NCBI GenBank assembly: GCA_020832665.1
Contig: JAFIEG010000023.1
Coordinates: forward strand, 1-55,315
DNA: 55,315 nt
Source of the DNA: Pararhodobacter sp.
GTDB taxonomy: Bacteria > Pseudomonadota > Alphaproteobacteria > Rhodobacterales > Rhodobacteraceae
Direction of reading: 5' to 3'
Shown piece by piece: positions 2,805 to 53,137 of this stretch; within the stretch, counting starts at the first letter, position 1; every line of letters starts with the position of its first letter. The notes beneath the pieces were generated by a model. It had not been told where the DNA came from. It worked only from the letters and a program-made list of their open reading frames with translations, and did not search any database. The translations under genes were made by a program, and so were the position numbers.

Positions 2805-4250
2805 TCAGATCTCCAGAAGGCGGCGCAGCAGGTCATCGGCGACCTGCATCACGCGGGCATTGGCGGCATAGGCCTTTTCCAGGGTCATCAGGCGCTGCAA
2901 TTCGCCATCGGTATCGACCCCGCCTGCGAGCATCCGCTCGAACAGCGTGTCATGCCGGCTCTGGGCGAAACCACCGCGCATCTCGGCGGCGTGGCGGCTT
3001 TGCCCGAAAGTTCCGACCAGCTGGCCGGCATGGCCCGCCAGGCTGCGCGCGGCGCCGCCGCCAGTGGCCGCGAGCGGTGCCTCGATCGCGTCGAGCAGGC
3101 GCATGAGCTGCGCGGGATCGCCCACCTCCAGGCCGGGAGCAGTGGCGCCAAGCCCGTCGCGCAGGCGCCAGTATTCGCCCCCGCCGGCCGGGGTCAGGGC
3201 ATCGTTCAGCGCCACCCGGCCGGCCAGCCCGGGCGCGGGTGGGGTGTCGGGGACGCCGCCAGCATCGGTAAACAGCCCCGGCGCGCCGTCCGGCAGCGAG
3301 GGGTCGGTTGCCGGGTCAGCGAAACGGGCGATCAATTCGGCGGCGAATTGATCGAGCTGGCTCTGCGCCGCGGGGGCATGGCTGTCACGGATGGCAAAAT
3401 GCGCGCCCAGCCGGCCGCCGCCAATCGGCGCCCCGGGACCGCTCGGCACTGGTTGGCCATCAAGGGTGAGGCCCGAGAGCTGGCCATCGGCCAGGCTCAT
3501 GGCGGCGGTGATCGGTGCGCTGGGCTGAAAGCCGATCTGCATCGGCTGCGTGCCGTCGAGCAGCATCTGGCCGCCGGCGGTATAGAGCGCGAGCCGACCA
3601 TCGGGGCGCAGCTGCTCGCGCAGCGGCACGATGTCGGACAGCTCGGTGACCAGCATCTCGCGCTTCTCGACAAGATCGAGCGCCGGGTCGCCGCCAGCCT
3701 GGCGGCGCAGTATGTCGGTGTTGAGCCGGGCAACCTCGCCAAGGCCGCGATTGAGGGTTTCGACATCACCAGCGATGGCGGCATCGGCCGCCTGGCGTTG
3801 CGAGCGGATATCCTCCGAGGCGTCGTTCAGCGCGCCGGCAAGTGAACCGGCTGCCCGCGCCGCGCTGGCGAGCAGGTAATCGAGATCGGGGCGGTCGGCG
3901 GCATCGGCCAGCGCGTTTTCAAGAGCGGTGATGCGCCCGGCAAGCGAATTGCCATCGCCCGCCTCGCCGAGCGCCTCGGCGAGGCGCTCCCAGAAAGCGG
4001 TCTCGGCCCCGGCGGCGGCCGTTTCGGCGCCTGACTGGCGCAGCATGCCGGCCAGCGCCGGATCGTCCTGGCGGTGGATGCCGGTGATGCGCACGCCGCC
4101 CTGGCTGCCGGCGGCGCTGGCCAGCGCCAGCCGACGCGGTGCGTAACCCTCGACCATGGCATTGGCGATGTTCGAGGAGGCAAGCTGCACGCCGCGCGCC
4201 GAGGCCTGCAGCCCGCTCATGGCATTGGCGATCGAGAGATTCAGACTCAT
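2805..4250 (-). CDS. flgK: Flagellar hook-associated protein 1 FlgK
   Basis: Hook-filament junction protein of 481 aa. The N terminus has the axial-protein motif (ASSNIANAMVEGYAPRR, residues about 25-41; the family pattern is S.NIAN..T.GY). The C terminus has the matching rod/hook domain (EKAYAANARVMQVADDLL). The middle is long and variable, as expected for FlgK. It lies 32 nt downstream of flgE and 2 nt upstream of flgL, the standard flgE-flgK-flgL order in Rhodobacterales. Confidence 0.93.
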   Translation of the reverse strand: MSLNLSIANAMSGLQASARGVQLASSNIANAMVEGYAPRRLALASAAGSQGGVRITGIHRQDDPALAGMLRQSGAETAAAGAETAFWERLAEALGEAGDGNSLAGRITALENALADAADRPDLDYLLASAARAAGSLAGALNDASEDIRSQRQAADAAIAGDVETLNRGLGEVARLNTDILRRQAGGDPALDLVEKREMLVTELSDIVPLREQLRPDGRLALYTAGGQMLLDGTQPMQIGFQPSAPITAAMSLADGQLSGLTLDGQPVPSGPGAPIGGGRLGAHFAIRDSHAPAAQSQLDQFAAELIARFADPATDPSLPDGAPGLFTDAGGVPDTPPAPGLAGRVALNDALTPAGGGEYWRLRDGLGATAPGLEVGDPAQLMRLLDAIEAPLAATGGGAARSLAGHAGQLVGTFGQSRHAAEMRGGFAQSRHDTLFERMLAGGVDTDGELQRLMTLEKAYAANARVMQVADDLLRRLLEI

Positions 4251-4282: not shown

Positions 4283-5590
4283 TCAGCGCTTCAGATTGGC
4301 GGTTTCCTGAAGCATCTCGTCCACGGTCTGGATTACCTTGGCGTTCGAGCTGTAGGCGCGCTGTGTCTGAATCATGTTGGTCAGTTCTTCGGCGACATCG
4401 GCGGTCGAGCCCTCGAGCGCGTAGCCGGCAACCTCGCCGGTCGGCCCGTCGCCGGCATTCCACAGGAACAGCGCGCCGCTTTCGCCGGTGACGCGGTAGC
4501 TTTGCCCCTCAAGCGCTTCCAGCCCGTTTGGGTTGGGAACATCGACCACCGGGATCTGGGCGATGGGGCGAATGAGCCCGGAATCATAGATTGCCTGGAC
4601 GAAGCCCCTTTCATCGACCTCGACCCCAAGCAGCGTCTGCACCGGCGAGCCGTCGCGATCCATGGCGATGGTTTCGAAGCTCGACGCCATCTGGGTAATG
4701 CCATCGGAGCTGCCGGGGCGCCCGATATCGACATCGATTTCCTGGCCGTCAACGGAGATCGACATGGTGCCGGTTTCCGGGTCATAGGCACCGCCAGGGG
4801 CGCCGTCGGCCTGGGTTACCGAGATGATCTTCCCGGCATCAGGCGGGGTGTCGGAGAAGGTGATCGTGTATTCGCCGACCACCGCATCGCCATTGCGCGG
4901 ATCGGTGATTCGCATCGTCCAGGTGTTTGACTGGCCGGTGTCGGGCACATCCGGCTCGAAGCTTAGGCTGAGCCGCTCGGTGGCGCCGAGGGCGGTATAG
5001 TATTCCATCGACATGACACGCGGGCTGCCGTCGCCGCCCTCCCTTGTGTCATTGGCCGGCAGGTTGACCCGCAGGCCCACCCGGGTTGTCGGGTCCGAAC
5101 TGAAGCGGTCTCCGGTGATCTGGACCGGGCGCAGCCCGCCCGCGGAATCGCGCGGCGGCGTGCCGATACTGCCATCAGGCCCCACCGGCCAGCCCAGCAA
5201 CACCATGCCCGATTGCGTGCGCAGTATGCCCTGGGCATCAGGGCGGAACGAGCCCGTGGTCATCAGCTGCAAGGGCATGTTGCCCCCTGCAGTAAGCGCC
5301 GACTGTGGCGTGACCGGCAGAAAGCCGCGCCCGTTTACCGCCAGATCGGTGGGGTTGTTGGTGGCGGCGAGCGCGCCGCGCTGGTCGATCATGCGCATGG
5401 TCGATGCGCGCACGCCACCGGCCATGTAGCTGCCACCGCCGCCGAGCACCACGGAATGGAACGAACTGCGCATCCGCTTGTAGCCGGCGGTGCCGCTGTT
5501 GGCGATATTGTCCGAGATCGTGGACAGCCGCGTGGCATTCGCGTTGAGTCCGAGGATGCTGGCATTGAAAGACGAAAAGAGGCCTGACAT
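4283..5590 (-). CDS. flgE: Flagellar hook protein FlgE
   Basis: Structural subunit of the hook, 435 aa. The N-terminal axial motif is TISDNIANSGTAGYKRM (residues 23-39). The C-terminal flagellar domain carries TNMIQTQRAYSSNAKVIQT, typical of hook and rod proteins. The central part (residues about 90-380) is the FlgE D1/D2 region with many acidic and Gly-rich turns. Start ATG at 5590 has an AAGGAA upstream. It is preceded by an 87-nt gap after motB that contains a CtrA-like sequence, so it may have its own promoter. Confidence 0.94.
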   Translation of the reverse strand: MSGLFSSFNASILGLNANATRLSTISDNIANSGTAGYKRMRSSFHSVVLGGGGSYMAGGVRASTMRMIDQRGALAATNNPTDLAVNGRGFLPVTPQSALTAGGNMPLQLMTTGSFRPDAQGILRTQSGMVLLGWPVGPDGSIGTPPRDSAGGLRPVQITGDRFSSDPTTRVGLRVNLPANDTREGGDGSPRVMSMEYYTALGATERLSLSFEPDVPDTGQSNTWTMRITDPRNGDAVVGEYTITFSDTPPDAGKIISVTQADGAPGGAYDPETGTMSISVDGQEIDVDIGRPGSSDGITQMASSFETIAMDRDGSPVQTLLGVEVDERGFVQAIYDSGLIRPIAQIPVVDVPNPNGLEALEGQSYRVTGESGALFLWNAGDGPTGEVAGYALEGSTADVAEELTNMIQTQRAYSSNAKVIQTVDEMLQETANLKR

Positions 5591-5646
5591 GTGTGTTTCC
5601 TTCGTGCCGTCGCCATGAGGTTGACGTGCAATCTGCCCGAAGGGTC

Positions 5647-5661
5647 TTAATGTCGGGCTAA
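5647..5661 (-). promoter_or_regulatory. CtrA-like site upstream of flgE
   Basis: On the minus strand this reads TTAG-N7-TTAA, one mismatch from the CtrA consensus TTAA-N7-TTAA, about 57-71 nt upstream of the flgE start. CtrA control of motility genes is established in Rhodobacterales. A site with the same single mismatch precedes fliC (44067). The match is short and could occur by chance. Confidence 0.4.
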
Positions 5662-5677
5662 CGCTGTCGCGGCCTTT

Positions 5678-6508
5678 TCATCGCGATGCTGTCCGCCCCG
5701 TCGCCGGCTCTCGCGACTGGCGCAGCAAGATCACCTCGAGCCGGTTGTTGCGGCTTGCCATTGCGTTCTCGACGGCCGGGCGCCGGTCGGCATGGCCGGT
5801 AAGGCGCGCCAGCCGCGACGGATCGACACCGCCCTCTTCGAGCAGCCGGCGCATGCTGGCGGCGCGCGCCATCGACAGGCTCCAGTGCGGATCGTCGCGC
5901 TGGACCATGGTATAGCTGCGGGTGTGCCCTTCCACCGCCATGGCGTTGCCGACCATGCCCAGAACCTCGCCGAGAATGCCGGCGATGATCCGAAGCACCG
6001 GCTTCGGTTCGTTGGTATCGGGGTGAAACAGCGCGCTGTCGGGCAGGTCGAAGATCTCGATCACCAGCCCCTCATCGGTGACCCGCATCATCATGTGGCG
6101 CAGTGCGTCGTCCAGCGCCGGGTTCTCGCCGCCCAGCCCGCGCAGATGACGCGCGGCTTCTTCCATCTGCGCTGATTCGGCCGCGATGGCGTCTGCCTCT
6201 GCTTCCGGGTCTCCGCGCGGAGAGTCGGGGCCAAGATTTTCGCGCGTCTCGATGTCGGAGCCACCAAGCAGGCCGTCGCCGCCCGAGGACAGCCGGTGCA
6301 CCGGAATCGACGGATTGAAATAATCCGCCAGACCGCGCCTTTGCGATTCGCTCGTTGCGCCGAGCAGCCACATCATCAGAAAGAAGGCCATCATGGCGGT
6401 CACGAAGTCCGCATAGGCCACTTTCCAGGCGCCACCGTGATGGTGCTTGCCGCCTGCAACCTTCTTTCGCCTGATGATGATTGGCGCGGCATCGTTTCGC
6501 CGGCTCAT
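5678..6508 (-). CDS. motB: Flagellar motor stator protein MotB
   Basis: Stator subunit anchoring the motor to peptidoglycan, 276 aa. The cytoplasmic N terminus is basic and includes KKVAGGKHHHGGAWKVAYAD. It leads into one membrane helix (residues about 33-50) that begins with the proton-binding Asp of the MotB pattern W..AYADF. The C-terminal OmpA/MotB domain (residues about 140-265) has the peptidoglycan-binding elements EGHT and GHADRRPAVEN..ASRNNRLE. MotA is not next to it in this window. First gene of the minus-strand flagellar run. Confidence 0.93.
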   Translation of the reverse strand: MSRRNDAAPIIIRRKKVAGGKHHHGGAWKVAYADFVTAMMAFFLMMWLLGATSESQRRGLADYFNPSIPVHRLSSGGDGLLGGSDIETRENLGPDSPRGDPEAEADAIAAESAQMEEAARHLRGLGGENPALDDALRHMMMRVTDEGLVIEIFDLPDSALFHPDTNEPKPVLRIIAGILGEVLGMVGNAMAVEGHTRSYTMVQRDDPHWSLSMARAASMRRLLEEGGVDPSRLARLTGHADRRPAVENAMASRNNRLEVILLRQSREPATGRTASR

Positions 6509-30420: not shown

Positions 30421-31104
30421 TCAGAATGGGATTTCTTCATCTCGCTGCGATCTATGGTCTTCCAGACGCGGTGTCTGATCGGCGGCTTCAATCAACCTTT
30501 GCTCTTCATCCTCATCCGCCTTTTCAGCACCGAGCAGCGAGGTAATTGTTCCAATCGCAGCCGGTAGATCGGCGAGCATTGAAGTGCCACCGACTGCCAC
30601 TGCGCCAATGCCTGCTAACAATACCCCAATATGAGAAATATTTGTCCGCGGCGCCACTATGTGTGACTGCAATTCATCTATCTTCTCGCCTGCGCTGTCC
30701 TTGGTTCTCTGCGGCAGATCAGAGTTTCCGATCAAGATTCGCAAATTTTCAATCTGAATTAGAACTTGTTTCCTCGTTGGCCGAGAGAGAGAAACGGTAA
30801 ACTCGAGGTTCTCTAAACATTTTCTTAAACTCAACTTGGTCGCGAGTGCAGCCACTTCGGCCCGGAAGTAATCCATATTTTCTCTTACACCGGAAACGGA
30901 CACCTCTGGCAACATGCCGACGTCTAATTCATCAGCGGCACTTTTTAGTGTTGCCCAGTACTCGATCAGCGCCTCATCGGTTGAGCCATACTCTGGGTTG
31001 AAGCTTTCCGCCAATCTCCTCTCGACTAAATCCCGAAGAGCCAACCATCGGGGGATCGGCTCCAGCGGTAGTTTATTGAAGTCATGAGAGAAGACTAGCG
31101 GCAT
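30421..31104 (-). CDS. Unknown protein with C-terminal membrane segment, foreign composition
   Basis: 227 aa, not recognised. Residues 1-150 are mainly helical and charged; residues 158-192 are hydrophobic (HIGVLLAGIGAVAVGG and PAAIGTITSLLG), long enough for one or two membrane passes; the tail is highly acidic (EKADEDEEQ). Base composition differs from the neighbours: in 30601-30660 only 29 of 60 bases are G or C, against 43 of 60 in odhB at 32161-32220. Its ATG lies 5 nt after the odhB stop with no evident ribosome-binding site, so translation probably depends on coupling. The MAPEG gene follows 9 nt later. The compact fit and composition suggest a transferred gene settled in the operon. 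Confidence 0.75.
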   Translation of the reverse strand: MPLVFSHDFNKLPLEPIPRWLALRDLVERRLAESFNPEYGSTDEALIEYWATLKSAADELDVGMLPEVSVSGVRENMDYFRAEVAALATKLSLRKCLENLEFTVSLSRPTRKQVLIQIENLRILIGNSDLPQRTKDSAGEKIDELQSHIVAPRTNISHIGVLLAGIGAVAVGGTSMLADLPAAIGTITSLLGAEKADEDEEQRLIEAADQTPRLEDHRSQRDEEIPF

Positions 31105-49214: not shown

Positions 49215-49994
49215 TCAAACCACCCGTTCGACCATCATCTTCTTGATCTCGGCAATCGCCTTGGCCGGGTTCAGCCCCTTGGGGCAGGTCTTGGCGCAAT
49301 TCATGATGGTGTGGCAGCGATAAAGCTTGAACGGGTCGTGCAGATCGTCGAGCCGCTCGCCGGTGGCTTCGTCGCGCGAATCGATGATCCAGCGATAGGC
49401 GTGCAGAAGCGCCGCCGGGCCCAGATAGCGGTCGCCATTCCACCAGTAGCTGGGGCAGGAGGTGGAGCAGCAGGCACACATGACGCATTCATAGAGACCG
49501 TCGAGTTTTTCGCGGTCCTCGATGGATTGTTTCCACTCTTTCGCCGGGGTGTTCGATTTCGTCTCCAGCCAGGGCTGGATGCTGGCGTGCTGGGCGTAGA
49601 AATGCGTCAGATCGGGCACCAGATCCTTGACCACCGGCATATGTGGCAGCGGGTAGATGCGCACATCGCCCTTCACTTCGTCCATGCCGAAGATGCAGGC
49701 CAGCTCGTTGCCGCCATCGATATTCATGGCGCAAGAGCCGCAGATGCCCTCGCGGCAGGAACGGCGAAAGGTCAGCGTGGGGTCGATCTCGTTCTTGATC
49801 TTGATCAGCGCGTCCAGAACCATAGGCCCGCAGCTGTCCATATCAACGAAATAGGTGTCCACGCGCGGGTTCTCGCCGTCATCGGGGTTCCAGCGATAGA
49901 TGCGGAAGGTGCGCAGGTTCTTCGCGCCTTCGGGCTTGGGCCAGGTCTTGCCGACGCGGATCTGGCTGTTTTTCGGCAGGGTCAGTTGAACCAT
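49215..49994 (-). CDS. sdhB: Succinate dehydrogenase iron-sulfur subunit
   Basis: 259 aa. It carries electrons from FAD to ubiquinone. [2Fe-2S] ligands C80, C85, C88 and C100 (CREGICGSC and a later Cys), then [12 protein letters not shown] and [12 protein letters not shown] for the [4Fe-4S] and [3Fe-4S] clusters. AGGAG lies 6 nt upstream of the ATG, which is 9 nt past the GIY-YIG-like gene. Normally sdhB directly follows sdhA. Confidence 0.97.
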
Positions 49995-50003
49995 CTAGGA
50001 CTC

Positions 50004-50546
50004 CTAGCGAGCAAGTTGTAGAGCAGACTCAGAGTACCGGATCCACGCATCCCGTGGGCCACGGCGCCGATGTAACCGACGGTCGTTTAGACCGTAAACA
50101 ACGACTCTGCGATCGCGTCTTGTCATCGAAACATTCAGGATCGCATGGTTTACAGCGAGAGCATGAGCGATTAGGCGGTTCTCCAACCAATCGATTTCAC
50201 GAGAGGCCGATATATTTGCAGGCCCAGTGTCGCAAGTTTCATTACGCCCGGAACACCTTGGATAAAGAATCAATTTTGTAATGCCTGCCGGCTGTTGCTC
50301 CATGGCTCTCCGGTACTTGGCCAGTTTATCTGAGGTAAAGACTTCACCTGCAAAAGAACTCTGTGTTTTACCTGCATACCAAGGCGTTGGCTGCCCTCTT
50401 TGGTTCTCGATTACAAACAGATAGCACCCAATAGCTTTTCGGATATTGTAATCAAATTCCTCTTCCATCGTATGCCAGAATCGCTCGCGCCACCTACCAT
50501 TGCCCAAGTCAAACTCTACGGCAGGGGTAACAGCAAAATAAGGCAT
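50004..50546 (-). CDS. GIY-YIG-like protein inserted in sdh operon, foreign composition
   Basis: 180 aa. Possible GIY-YIG nuclease-like fold: GCY (residues 40-42) and PWYAGKT (YAG at 57-59) fit the two strands of the motif, and EIDWLENRLIAHALAVNHAI (E117/E122) fits the C-terminal Glu/Asn region. The catalytic Arg is not obvious, so activity is uncertain. Composition is foreign: 29 of 60 bases are G or C in 50341-50400, against 38 of 60 in sdhA at 50581-50640. Its ATG shares one base with the sdhA stop (TGATG) and it ends 9 nt before sdhB. It is a single gene that splits the sdhA-sdhB pair without breaking it. Confidence 0.7.
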   Translation of the reverse strand: MPYFAVTPAVEFDLGNGRWRERFWHTMEEEFDYNIRKAIGCYLFVIENQRGQPTPWYAGKTQSSFAGEVFTSDKLAKYRRAMEQQPAGITKLILYPRCSGRNETCDTGPANISASREIDWLENRLIAHALAVNHAILNVSMTRRDRRVVVYGLNDRRLHRRRGPRDAWIRYSESALQLAR

Positions 50547-52351
50547 CAGTAAACACGCGCCTTGGGGGCGATCTTTTTCGGCTCGATGCCGCCCTTCTCG
50601 GGCGGGGTGAGCGGTTCAGTAATGACCGGGCGATAATCCAGCCGGACCTTGTTGCCATCGACCCAGGCGAGCGAATGCTTGCGCCAGTTCTGGTCATCGC
50701 GCTCGGAGAAATCCTCGCGGGCGTGGGCCCCGCGCGATTCCTTTCGCGCCAGAGCGCCGTTGATGGTGGTCAGTGCATTGGGCATGAGGTTTTCAAGCTC
50801 AAGCGTTTCCATCAGGTCCGAGTTCCAGATCAGCGAGCGGTCGGTAACCTTGATGTCGCTCAGCTTGGCGGCCACCTTCTCCATCTCGGCCACGCCTTCG
50901 GCCAGCACCTCTTCGGTGCGGAACACGGCGGCGTTGGACTGCATGGTCTTCTGCATTTCCAGCCGCAGATCGGCCGTGGGCACCGCGCCATCGGCATTGC
51001 GGATACGGTCAAACCGTTCCAGCGCGGCATCGACCGCTGCCTTGGGCGCCACCGGCACCGGCGCCTCGGCATCGACCACCTGACCGGCGCGGATGGCGGC
51101 GGCGCGGCCGAACACTACCAGATCGATCAGCGAATTCGATCCCAGCCGGTTTGCCCCATGCACCGAGGCGCAGGCCGCCTCGCCCACCGCCATCAGCCCC
51201 GGCGCCACCCGGTTGGGGTTCTCGCCATCGGCGTTGAGCACCTCGCCCCAGTAATTGGTGGGAATGCCGCCCATGTTGTAATGCACCGTCGGCAGCACCG
51301 GGATGGGCTCGCGGGTGACATCGACCCCGGCAAAGATGCGCGCCGATTCGGAAATGCCGGGCAGGCGCAGATGCAGCGTTTCCGGCGGCAGGTGGTTGAG
51401 ATGCAGGTGGATATGGTCCTTGTTCGGCCCCACCCCGCGCCCCTCGCGGATTTCAATCGTCATGCAGCGCGAAACCACGTCGCGGCTGGCCAGATCCTTG
51501 TAGGTGGGGGCGTAGCGCTCCATGAAGCGCTCGCCCTCGGAATTGGTCAGGTATCCGCCCTCGCCGCGCGCGCCCTCGGTGATCAGGCAGCCGGCGCCAT
51601 AGATGCCGGTGGGGTGGAACTGCACGAATTCCATGTCCTGCAGGGGCAGCCCTGCACGGGCGATCATGCCGTTGCCGTCGCCGGTGCAGGTATGCGCCGA
51701 GGTGGCGCTGAAAAAGGCCCGGCCATAACCGCCGGTGGCCAGCACCACCATCTTGGCGTTGAACTGGTGCATCGTGCCGTCATCGAGCTTCCAGGCCAGC
51801 ACGCCCTGGCACTGGCCGTCCTCGCTCATGAGCAGGTCGAGGGCGAAATACTCGATATAGAACTCGGCCTTTTGCTTGAGCGACTGGCCATAGAGCGTGT
51901 GCAGCATTGCGTGGCCGGTGCGATCGGCGGCGGCGGCTGTGCGCTGCACGGGCGGGCCCTCGCCGAACTCGGTCGTATGGCCGCCGAAGGGGCGCTGATA
52001 GATCCTGCCGTCTTCGGTTCGAGAGAAGGGCACACCGTAATGCTCCAGCTCATAGACAGCCTTGGGCGCCTCGCGCGCCAGATATTCCATCGCGTCGGTG
52101 TCGCCCAGCCAGTCGGAACCCTTCACCGTGTCATACATGTGCCACTGCCAGTGATCGGGGCCCATGTTGGAAAGGCTGGCGGCTATGCCGCCCTGCGCCG
52201 CCACGGTGTGGCTGCGGGTGGGAAAGACCTTGGTGATGCAGGCCGTGCGCAGCCCCTGTTCGGCCATGCCGAGCGTGGCGCGCAGCCCCGCGCCGCCGGC
52301 GCCGACCACCACCACGTCAAAGGAATGTTGTTCGATTTCGTATGCAGCCAT
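50546..52351 (-). CDS. sdhA: Succinate dehydrogenase flavoprotein subunit
   Basis: 601 aa. FAD-binding fold [20 protein letters not shown]; His48 in the SHTVAAQGG motif carries the covalent FAD; active-site elements [30 protein letters not shown], and [11 protein letters not shown]. It oxidises succinate to fumarate. The start at 52351 ([10 protein letters not shown]) is used; an ATG 21 nt upstream falls in the sdhD 3' end. It begins 10 nt after sdhD. Confidence 0.98.
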
Positions 52352-52361
52352 GTGTCTTTCC

Positions 52362-52742
52362 TCAGGCGCCAAACAGGGTGGTGGCGACAGCCAGCGTGCC
52401 GGCTACCGCCAGCGCGCCACAGGCGAAGGTGTTGAGCATCAACAGCGCCACCCGCGCGGGTTTGTTGGGCACGTAATCCTCGATGACCACCTGCACGCCC
52501 TGCGCCAGATGCCAGAAAGCGACGAGGAAGAACAGCACCGCCACCAGCGCATTGCCGAAGCTGGAATAGGTGGCCAGCATTGCCTCGTGCCCGCCGCCCA
52601 GCGCGCGGCCGAATGGGATGACGAACAGGACGGTCAGCGGGATCAGCGCCACCGACGACACCCTTTGCATCCACCAGTGATGCGCCCCCTCGCCGGCAGC
52701 GCCAAGGCCGTGAACGCGCGAATAATCGGTCTTGAATGCCAT
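52362..52742 (-). CDS. sdhD: Succinate dehydrogenase membrane anchor SdhD
   Basis: 126 aa, three membrane helices (about 28-48, 60-82, 95-122). The [20 protein letters not shown] segment preceding helix 1 and [14 protein letters not shown] are SdhD features; a heme-coordinating residue and the quinone site are shared with SdhC. Start [12 protein letters not shown] at 52742, 11 nt after sdhC. The longer upstream frame is only sdhC read out of phase. Confidence 0.9.
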
Positions 52743-52753
52743 GCCGCCCTCCG

Positions 52754-53137
52754 TCAGACGATGATGATCGTTATCAGCGTCAGCACCACCGAGGCGCCGA
52801 TCACGATGTAGTTGGCGCGCTGGGTCGCCTCGAGGTCGAAATTGCGGCCCATGTCCCAGACCAGGTGCCGGATGCCGTTGCAGAAGTGATAGCACAGCGC
52901 CCAGAGCGAGAGCATCATCACCACCAGCCCCAGCCATGAACTCAGCAGCCAGTCCACGGTGGCGAAATGCGCCGCCGACCAGGCGCCGGCGACAAACCAC
53001 CAGACCACCAGCACTGTGCCGGGGACAAGCGCCATGCCGGTGATCCGGTGCAGGATCGACAGGCGCGCGGTCAGCGGCAGGCGGTAGATCGTCAAATGTG
53101 GTGAAAGAGGCCGGTTGCCCCGGTTCACATCAGCCAT
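52754..53137 (-). CDS. sdhC: Succinate dehydrogenase cytochrome b556 subunit SdhC
   Basis: 127 aa, three membrane helices. Signature RPLSPHLTIYRLPLTARLSI with SILHRITG (quinone site) and CYHFCNGIRHLVWD, which holds the axial His for heme b. AAGGGAAA lies upstream of the ATG. First gene of the sdh operon; the paired TGTGATCAC boxes are 142-170 nt upstream. A likely promoter has -10 TATTCA at 53194-53199 (minus strand). Confidence 0.95.
   Translation of the reverse strand: MADVNRGNRPLSPHLTIYRLPLTARLSILHRITGMALVPGTVLVVWWFVAGAWSAAHFATVDWLLSSWLGLVVMMLSLWALCYHFCNGIRHLVWDMGRNFDLEATQRANYIVIGASVVLTLITIIIV

Follow-up and report, generated by a model that had tools for sequence, protein, structure and literature searches.

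A gene with a predicted GIY-YIG-type fold and phage relatives lies between sdhA and sdhB of Pararhodobacter sp.

The gene analyzed here is an open reading frame (ORF) of 180 codons on contig JAFIEG010000023.1 of Pararhodobacter sp. (assembly GCA_020832665.1); the whole stretch of 55,315 nt is called the window. The order of genes on the minus strand is sdhC, sdhD, sdhA, the 180-codon ORF, and sdhB (Table 1). SdhA was recognized by Pfam FAD_binding_2 (E 1e-124) together with Succ_DH_flav_C, and SdhB by Fer2_3 (E 2e-33). The ATG of the gene has its A in common with the sdhA stop codon, which results in the junction TGATG, and the gene ends with TAG, 9 nt ahead of the sdhB ATG. Thus, the placement proposed in an initial annotation, which was made from the sequence alone, was confirmed, and the residues that it had named (GCY at 40-42, YAG at 57-59, Glu 117 and Glu 122) were all present in the translated sequence. 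The motif AGGAG, which overlaps the stop codon of the gene, may be the ribosome site of sdhB. A scan of positions 49900-50650 for sigma-70-like sites only revealed no such promoter, and no RNA structure stood out at the junction (z 0.06). Expression from the host operon, as had been suggested, is likely in view of the placement and the overlap. The gene is the sole copy within its own genome.

The base composition of the gene differed strongly from that of its neighbors. Its GC content was 49.7%, and its GC content at third codon positions (GC3) was 46.4%, compared to 82.9% for sdhA and 81.9% for sdhB. This GC3 was the lowest of 68 ORFs of the window, a set that comprised ORFs of at least 150 codons with a coding-like codon-position bias and to which the gene was admitted by rule. 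The foreign composition claimed before was therefore verified (46.4% versus about 82-83% in the neighbors). Another foreign-looking ORF of 227 aa was seen at 30421-31104 on the minus strand (GC 50%, GC3 52%).

Homologues of full or nearly full length occur in other genomes as well as on viral contigs, so the gene is more than a chance ORF. An alignment of 26 rows, including the window protein, was used to characterize the family; L262 (a 146-aa open frame) and the repeats or near-repeats L250, L251, L254, and L255 were omitted. The GIY-YIG superfamily is defined by GIY and YIG motifs on two neighboring strands (PMC1564403, accessible part). In the family, G40-x-Y42 and Y57-x-G59 were conserved in all 26 rows; GCY replaced GIY in 23 rows, and GIY proper was found in two. 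The predicted topology places the motifs on neighboring strands (residues 40-47 and 53-60), and E122, kept in every row, is located on a predicted helix (112-132). The central Arg of GIY-YIG domains is not conserved: the window protein has Ala at the GFR position, where inspection by eye gave Arg in 11 rows, Lys in 4, and other residues in 11. K74 is present in 25 of the 26 rows and might replace the missing Arg. A block WYxG..F..E....HK is conserved in the family. Nine residues are invariant and all are retained in the window protein, while it lacks four residues that are conserved in 24 or 25 rows.

The best VIA-align rows for the predicted fold belonged to the GIY-YIG superfamily (UvrC N-domain, T4 EndoII, PD-T4-3, and R.Eco29kI). 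With these proteins the window family would share the topology, the GxY and YxG strands, the Glu on a long helix, and an Asn after it; it differs by the absence of a PF01541 match (none at E 10), by GCY instead of GIY, by the conserved block, and by the unconserved Arg. Comparisons with GIY-YIG sets by hhalign were marginal at best. Pfam, NCBIfam, PHROGs, and PADLOC models yielded nothing beyond noise for the family, PDB sequence searches nothing relevant, and a DNA-binding module was not recognized by the libraries searched. Matches to DUF4575 (E 0.19) and SAV915 (E 0.061), seen for one row only and under any existing cut-offs, and to PDC-M16B of PADLOC (E 0.0086, 1 of 12 rows) were rejected as noise. 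The earlier nuclease proposal thus gains support from the predicted fold; a PF01541 match and a conserved central Arg were not found.

The gene was found in one of 18 genomes of the genus and, by profile, in one of 120 genomes of the family; its insertion is thus sporadic, a point that the initial annotation had proposed to check. In the class sample (385 genomes) three other genomes had relatives, and 11 named loci were detected in a contig collection, two of which came from the same genomes as in the class sample. One further relative (genome G1005) came from the family that includes Sphingomonas sp. Leaf33, and one with 28% identity lies on a plasmid of Polymorphobacter megasporae. All 11 carriers had one copy per genome. 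The copies of Erythrobacter ramosus and Roseivivax halotolerans were 77% identical although their hosts belong to different families, which speaks for recent transfer. Two matches were discarded as chance, L002/G323 (E 8e-4, 65 residues) and L172/G835 (E 4e-4), the latter of which overlaps a long ORF on the opposite strand. Directly after the Rhodospirillales copy an ORF was seen that by eye resembles an HNH-type protein (L040, 1140-1895, plus strand).

Profile scans of IMG/VR revealed relatives on 13 distinct viral contigs (two near-duplicates); three earlier scans with poorer queries had returned none. In L247 the gene is inverted and separates portal (phrog_145) from scaffold (phrog_206) in a block that also encodes the major head protein and terminase. 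In blastp against L247, this arrangement recurred in L260 and L261, where portals showed about 25% identity and scaffolds matched at E 1e-5 and 5e-4. In L248 the gene lies between the scaffold gene and an unlabelled stretch preceding terminase, in L249 it adjoins a head-morphogenesis gene, in L252 a tape measure gene, and in L253 it is found within the baseplate block and has 37% GC in a contig of 66% GC. The best local matches of the window protein were with L249 (57 of 139) and L256 (56 of 130). In the tree of the 26 rows it grouped with L256-L258 (support 86/79) inside a phage clade (90/95), and its branch was long. A first tree had placed it with the copies at ruvA-ruvB described below (97/97), but this was unstable without L171, was altered by the addition of phage rows, and was abandoned. 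Among named phage records L248 had no match at E 0.01, and the window protein had only matches at E 0.1 or worse, including a protein of Kosakonia phage Kc263. Judged by these comparisons, the relation to phages, which was absent from the initial annotation and is new relative to it, is better supported than the defence or toxin function proposed there. Additional inverted genes were seen in three of the contigs: a gene of unknown function (phrog_29562) that flanks the scaffold gene of L247 on its opposite side (3443-4093, plus), a gene resembling it by eye beyond the scaffold gene in L248 (347-901, plus), and, in L253, an ORF without PHROG match (5473-6066, plus) that follows the nuclease-like gene within the baseplate block.

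Next, the sdhA-sdhB junction was compared between genomes. The gene sdhB was found in 377 of 394 genomes of the sample, and the junction was read in 127 genomes from the family and class sample, which were the first entries of lists sorted by SdhB similarity and thus a non-random set of the nearest ones. The gene sdhA was located in 124 of the 127 (L022, L116, and L143 fell outside), and 11 short loci were swapped for longer ones. Only ORFs of at least 60 codons on the same strand were counted, some of which may be spurious in long gaps. At least one ORF lay between sdhA and sdhB in 97 of the 124 junctions (e.g., L012, L013, L139); 23 had a gap of at most 20 nt, and four had 37-74 nt without ORF. 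The first ORF overlapped the sdhA stop in 50 of the 97 occupied junctions. The cargo proteins of at least 75 aa (n = 179) formed 57 clusters, and one representative each of 10 clusters was compared with Pfam. Three lipoprotein-like clusters of 52, 22, and 8 proteins, named by eye from the lipobox, were distributed over 67 loci. Sulfotransferases (Sulfotransfer_1, E 7e-6), FkbM and further methyltransferases, and glycosyltransferase matches under the cut-off of Pfam were also found; a second cluster is presumably a sulfotransferase, a name that we take solely from its motif. In the genus of the window, eight of 15 junctions were empty (11-14 nt), three contained glycosyltransferase-like, two sulfotransferase-like, and one lipoprotein-like genes, and the last is the window's own. 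No other cargo protein clustered with the window gene. The sdhA-sdhB junction is thus a permissive cargo slot for unrelated genes in the interior of an operon in this bacterial family, and, because 97 of the 124 junctions hold an ORF, the window gene occupies a frequently used slot. The assumption that sdhCDAB is normally uninterrupted does not hold for this family, nor is the interruption in the window exceptional, while unrelated cargo at the same place, for which the initial annotation had proposed to look, is common.

A second junction was found for the family itself. Four genomes have the gene placed exactly at the ruvA-ruvB junction, in overlap with the ruvA stop or at most 15 nt from it: Sphingomonas sp. 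Leaf33, Erythrobacteraceae bacterium Alg239-R51, a metagenome-assembled genome of Sphingomonadaceae, and G1005. These four copies formed one group in the 26-row tree (91/97). In the family of Leaf33, strong matches were obtained in four of 298 genomes, three at ruvA-ruvB and the fourth on the Polymorphobacter plasmid. Three ruv copies were 50-51% identical to one another, compared to 80-93% for their RuvB, and RuvB was present in 283 of 296 genomes of this family sample. Of 30 ruvA-ruvB loci of the Sphingomonadaceae sample (L173-L202), seven were empty, two contained this family, and 11 contained other sequence; in eight the flank did not include a ruvA, and the remaining two (L198 and L199) were odd. 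By eye, the other content included hydrolase-like and proline-rich ORFs, and in L185 a different GIY-YIG gene with the look of UPF0213, an ORF that starts at about 1107 of the region before ruvB, lies just upstream of ruvB.

Taken together, the gene probably encodes a small, single-domain nuclease of GIY-YIG fold from an unnamed family with phage members, one copy of which would have settled in the sdhA-sdhB slot. The family would mostly be a mobile single-gene cassette that tailed phages carry between virion genes, and that bacteria carry in islands and occasionally at the exact junction of two core-operon genes. The present copy would have arrived from a phage-related source and been fixed at this junction. 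No sigma-70-like promoter of its own is in sight; most likely it is read from the sdh transcript and translated by stop-start coupling at TGATG, i.e., by reinitiation after sdhA at a lower level, while sdhB would retain its own ribosome site. Nicking or cutting of DNA via the Tyr/Glu/Asn set of GIY-YIG enzymes is the most likely activity of the protein, and its purpose would be its own spread by homing or an action against competing phages.

Table 1. Positions of the gene, its motifs, and its operon neighbors in the window
Feature	Position	Strand	Basis
Free-standing gene of predicted GIY-YIG fold, 180 aa	50004..50546	minus	ORF, composition, predicted fold
TGATG, joint sequence of sdhA stop (TGA) and gene start (ATG)	50544..50548	minus	sequence
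GCY motif, residues 40-42, GIY counterpart	50421..50429	minus	G and Y in 26/26 rows
YAG motif, residues 57-59, YIG counterpart	50370..50378	minus	Y and G in 26/26 rows
Glu122, putative counterpart of the GIY-YIG catalytic Glu	50181..50183	minus	26/26 rows; order and topology
Asn138	50133..50135	minus	present in 26/26 rows
9-nt spacer before sdhB	49995..50003	minus	sequence
sdhA, flavoprotein subunit	50546..52372	minus	Pfam
sdhB, iron-sulfur subunit	49215..49994	minus	Pfam
sdhD, start MAFKTDYSR	52362..52742	minus	tblastn, 13/13 genus members; name by position
sdhC	52754..53137	minus	tblastn, 13/13 genus members; name by position

Both purposes correspond to sharper forms of this explanation. 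Single inverted genes of lower GC in virion blocks are the usual site of morons, and such inverted, lower-GC single genes were indeed seen here; with a rather low probability, the gene is a phage moron that the host retained because its nuclease, made from the sdh operon, acts against phages by superinfection exclusion, which would not be exclusive of the cassette explanation. The presence of PD-T4-3 among the fold matches fits, and so does the fact that GIY-YIG nucleases act in defence, as exemplified by SNIPE, which uses such a domain against phage (PMC13190303, in the portion available). However, SNIPE is membrane-bound with DUF4041, whereas the window protein is one short domain without a transmembrane or DUF4041 part, no modification or immunity partner lies beside the gene in the window, and the best PADLOC match was at the noise level quoted above. 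The defence or toxin function in its original form was thus not supported, since the neighbors are sdhA and sdhB and not a partner gene, and the toxin alternative was dropped without any support found. Homing is the other form: a free-standing endonuclease would cut the conserved neighbor gene in alleles without the gene and be copied in by repair, like T4 Seg and Mob proteins, which is unlikely as an account of the window gene. It is consistent with the predicted fold, with the ruvA-ruvB junction shared by four genomes (three among 298 sampled from one family), and with the one-base stop-start overlap of a gene that separates two subunit genes of the same enzyme complex. In T4, mobE likewise lies between the genes of two subunits, its AUG sharing one base with the nrdA stop, and several free-standing homing endonuclease genes of T4 are promoterless (PMC2988022, part of the text). 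The phage members beside portal and scaffold also have a parallel, as T5orf172 homing endonuclease genes of phages frequently occur close to those for terminase, reductase, and capsid proteins (PMC10448857, in the section accessible). Against homing, both junctions also take unrelated cargo, a DNA-binding module was not recognized with the libraries searched, and the ruv copies, much less alike than their RuvB, could stem from one old insertion and many losses. Replacement of the flanks, expected after recent homing, was looked for at sdhA and sdhB among genus members, and no clear case emerged: the C-terminal 150 aa of SdhA of the window had the lowest similarity among 12 genus members (mean 0.759), but once the remainder of SdhA and SdhB was corrected for, the most negative of 91 pair residuals reached only -2.3 sd, within the scatter. 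That the whole family is a selfish GIY-YIG-type family homing between gene junctions, in phage virion modules as well as at ruvA-ruvB and sdhA-sdhB, is doubtful.

Two further explanations were considered. An inactive or decaying copy that persists as a neutral passenger is rather improbable; the very long branch, the four lost residues, and the foreign, unadapted codon usage agree with it, but the frame is intact over 180 codons and the nine invariant residues were kept. A host DNA-repair helper tied to Holliday-junction processing, to which the four relatives inside ruvCAB and the UvrC-type fold match point, is very improbable, because the gene is rare (four strong matches in 298 genomes, three at ruv) in spite of the nearly general presence of RuvB, and the other relatives are in phages, on a plasmid, and at sdh.

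The proposed cassette family can also be compared with known systems. T4 SegA-G (GIY-YIG) and MobE (HNH, between nrdA and nrdB) are likewise single genes between essential genes (PMC2988022, as far as available); the window family differs in that it also occurs in bacterial chromosomes and has no recognized DNA-binding module. COG3680 is similarly an uncharacterized bacterial GIY-YIG group, but it is listed with an extra conserved C-terminal domain in bacteria (PMC1564403, accessible part), a feature that may separate it from the window family. The family at the sdh junction is undescribed in the databases searched, and among the titles and openings of abstracts listed by searches of a mostly open-access literature collection none dealt with sdhA-sdhB cargo or with this nuclease-like family. 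The results tie an unnamed nuclease-like family to phages, a plasmid, and housekeeping operons, and they identify sdhA-sdhB and, less fully surveyed, ruvA-ruvB of sphingomonads as slots in the interior of operons that take unrelated genes. If homing were true, bacterial core operons would be targeted by intronless homing, a rare case in bacterial chromosomes; if defence were true, the gene would represent a new one-gene anti-phage family.
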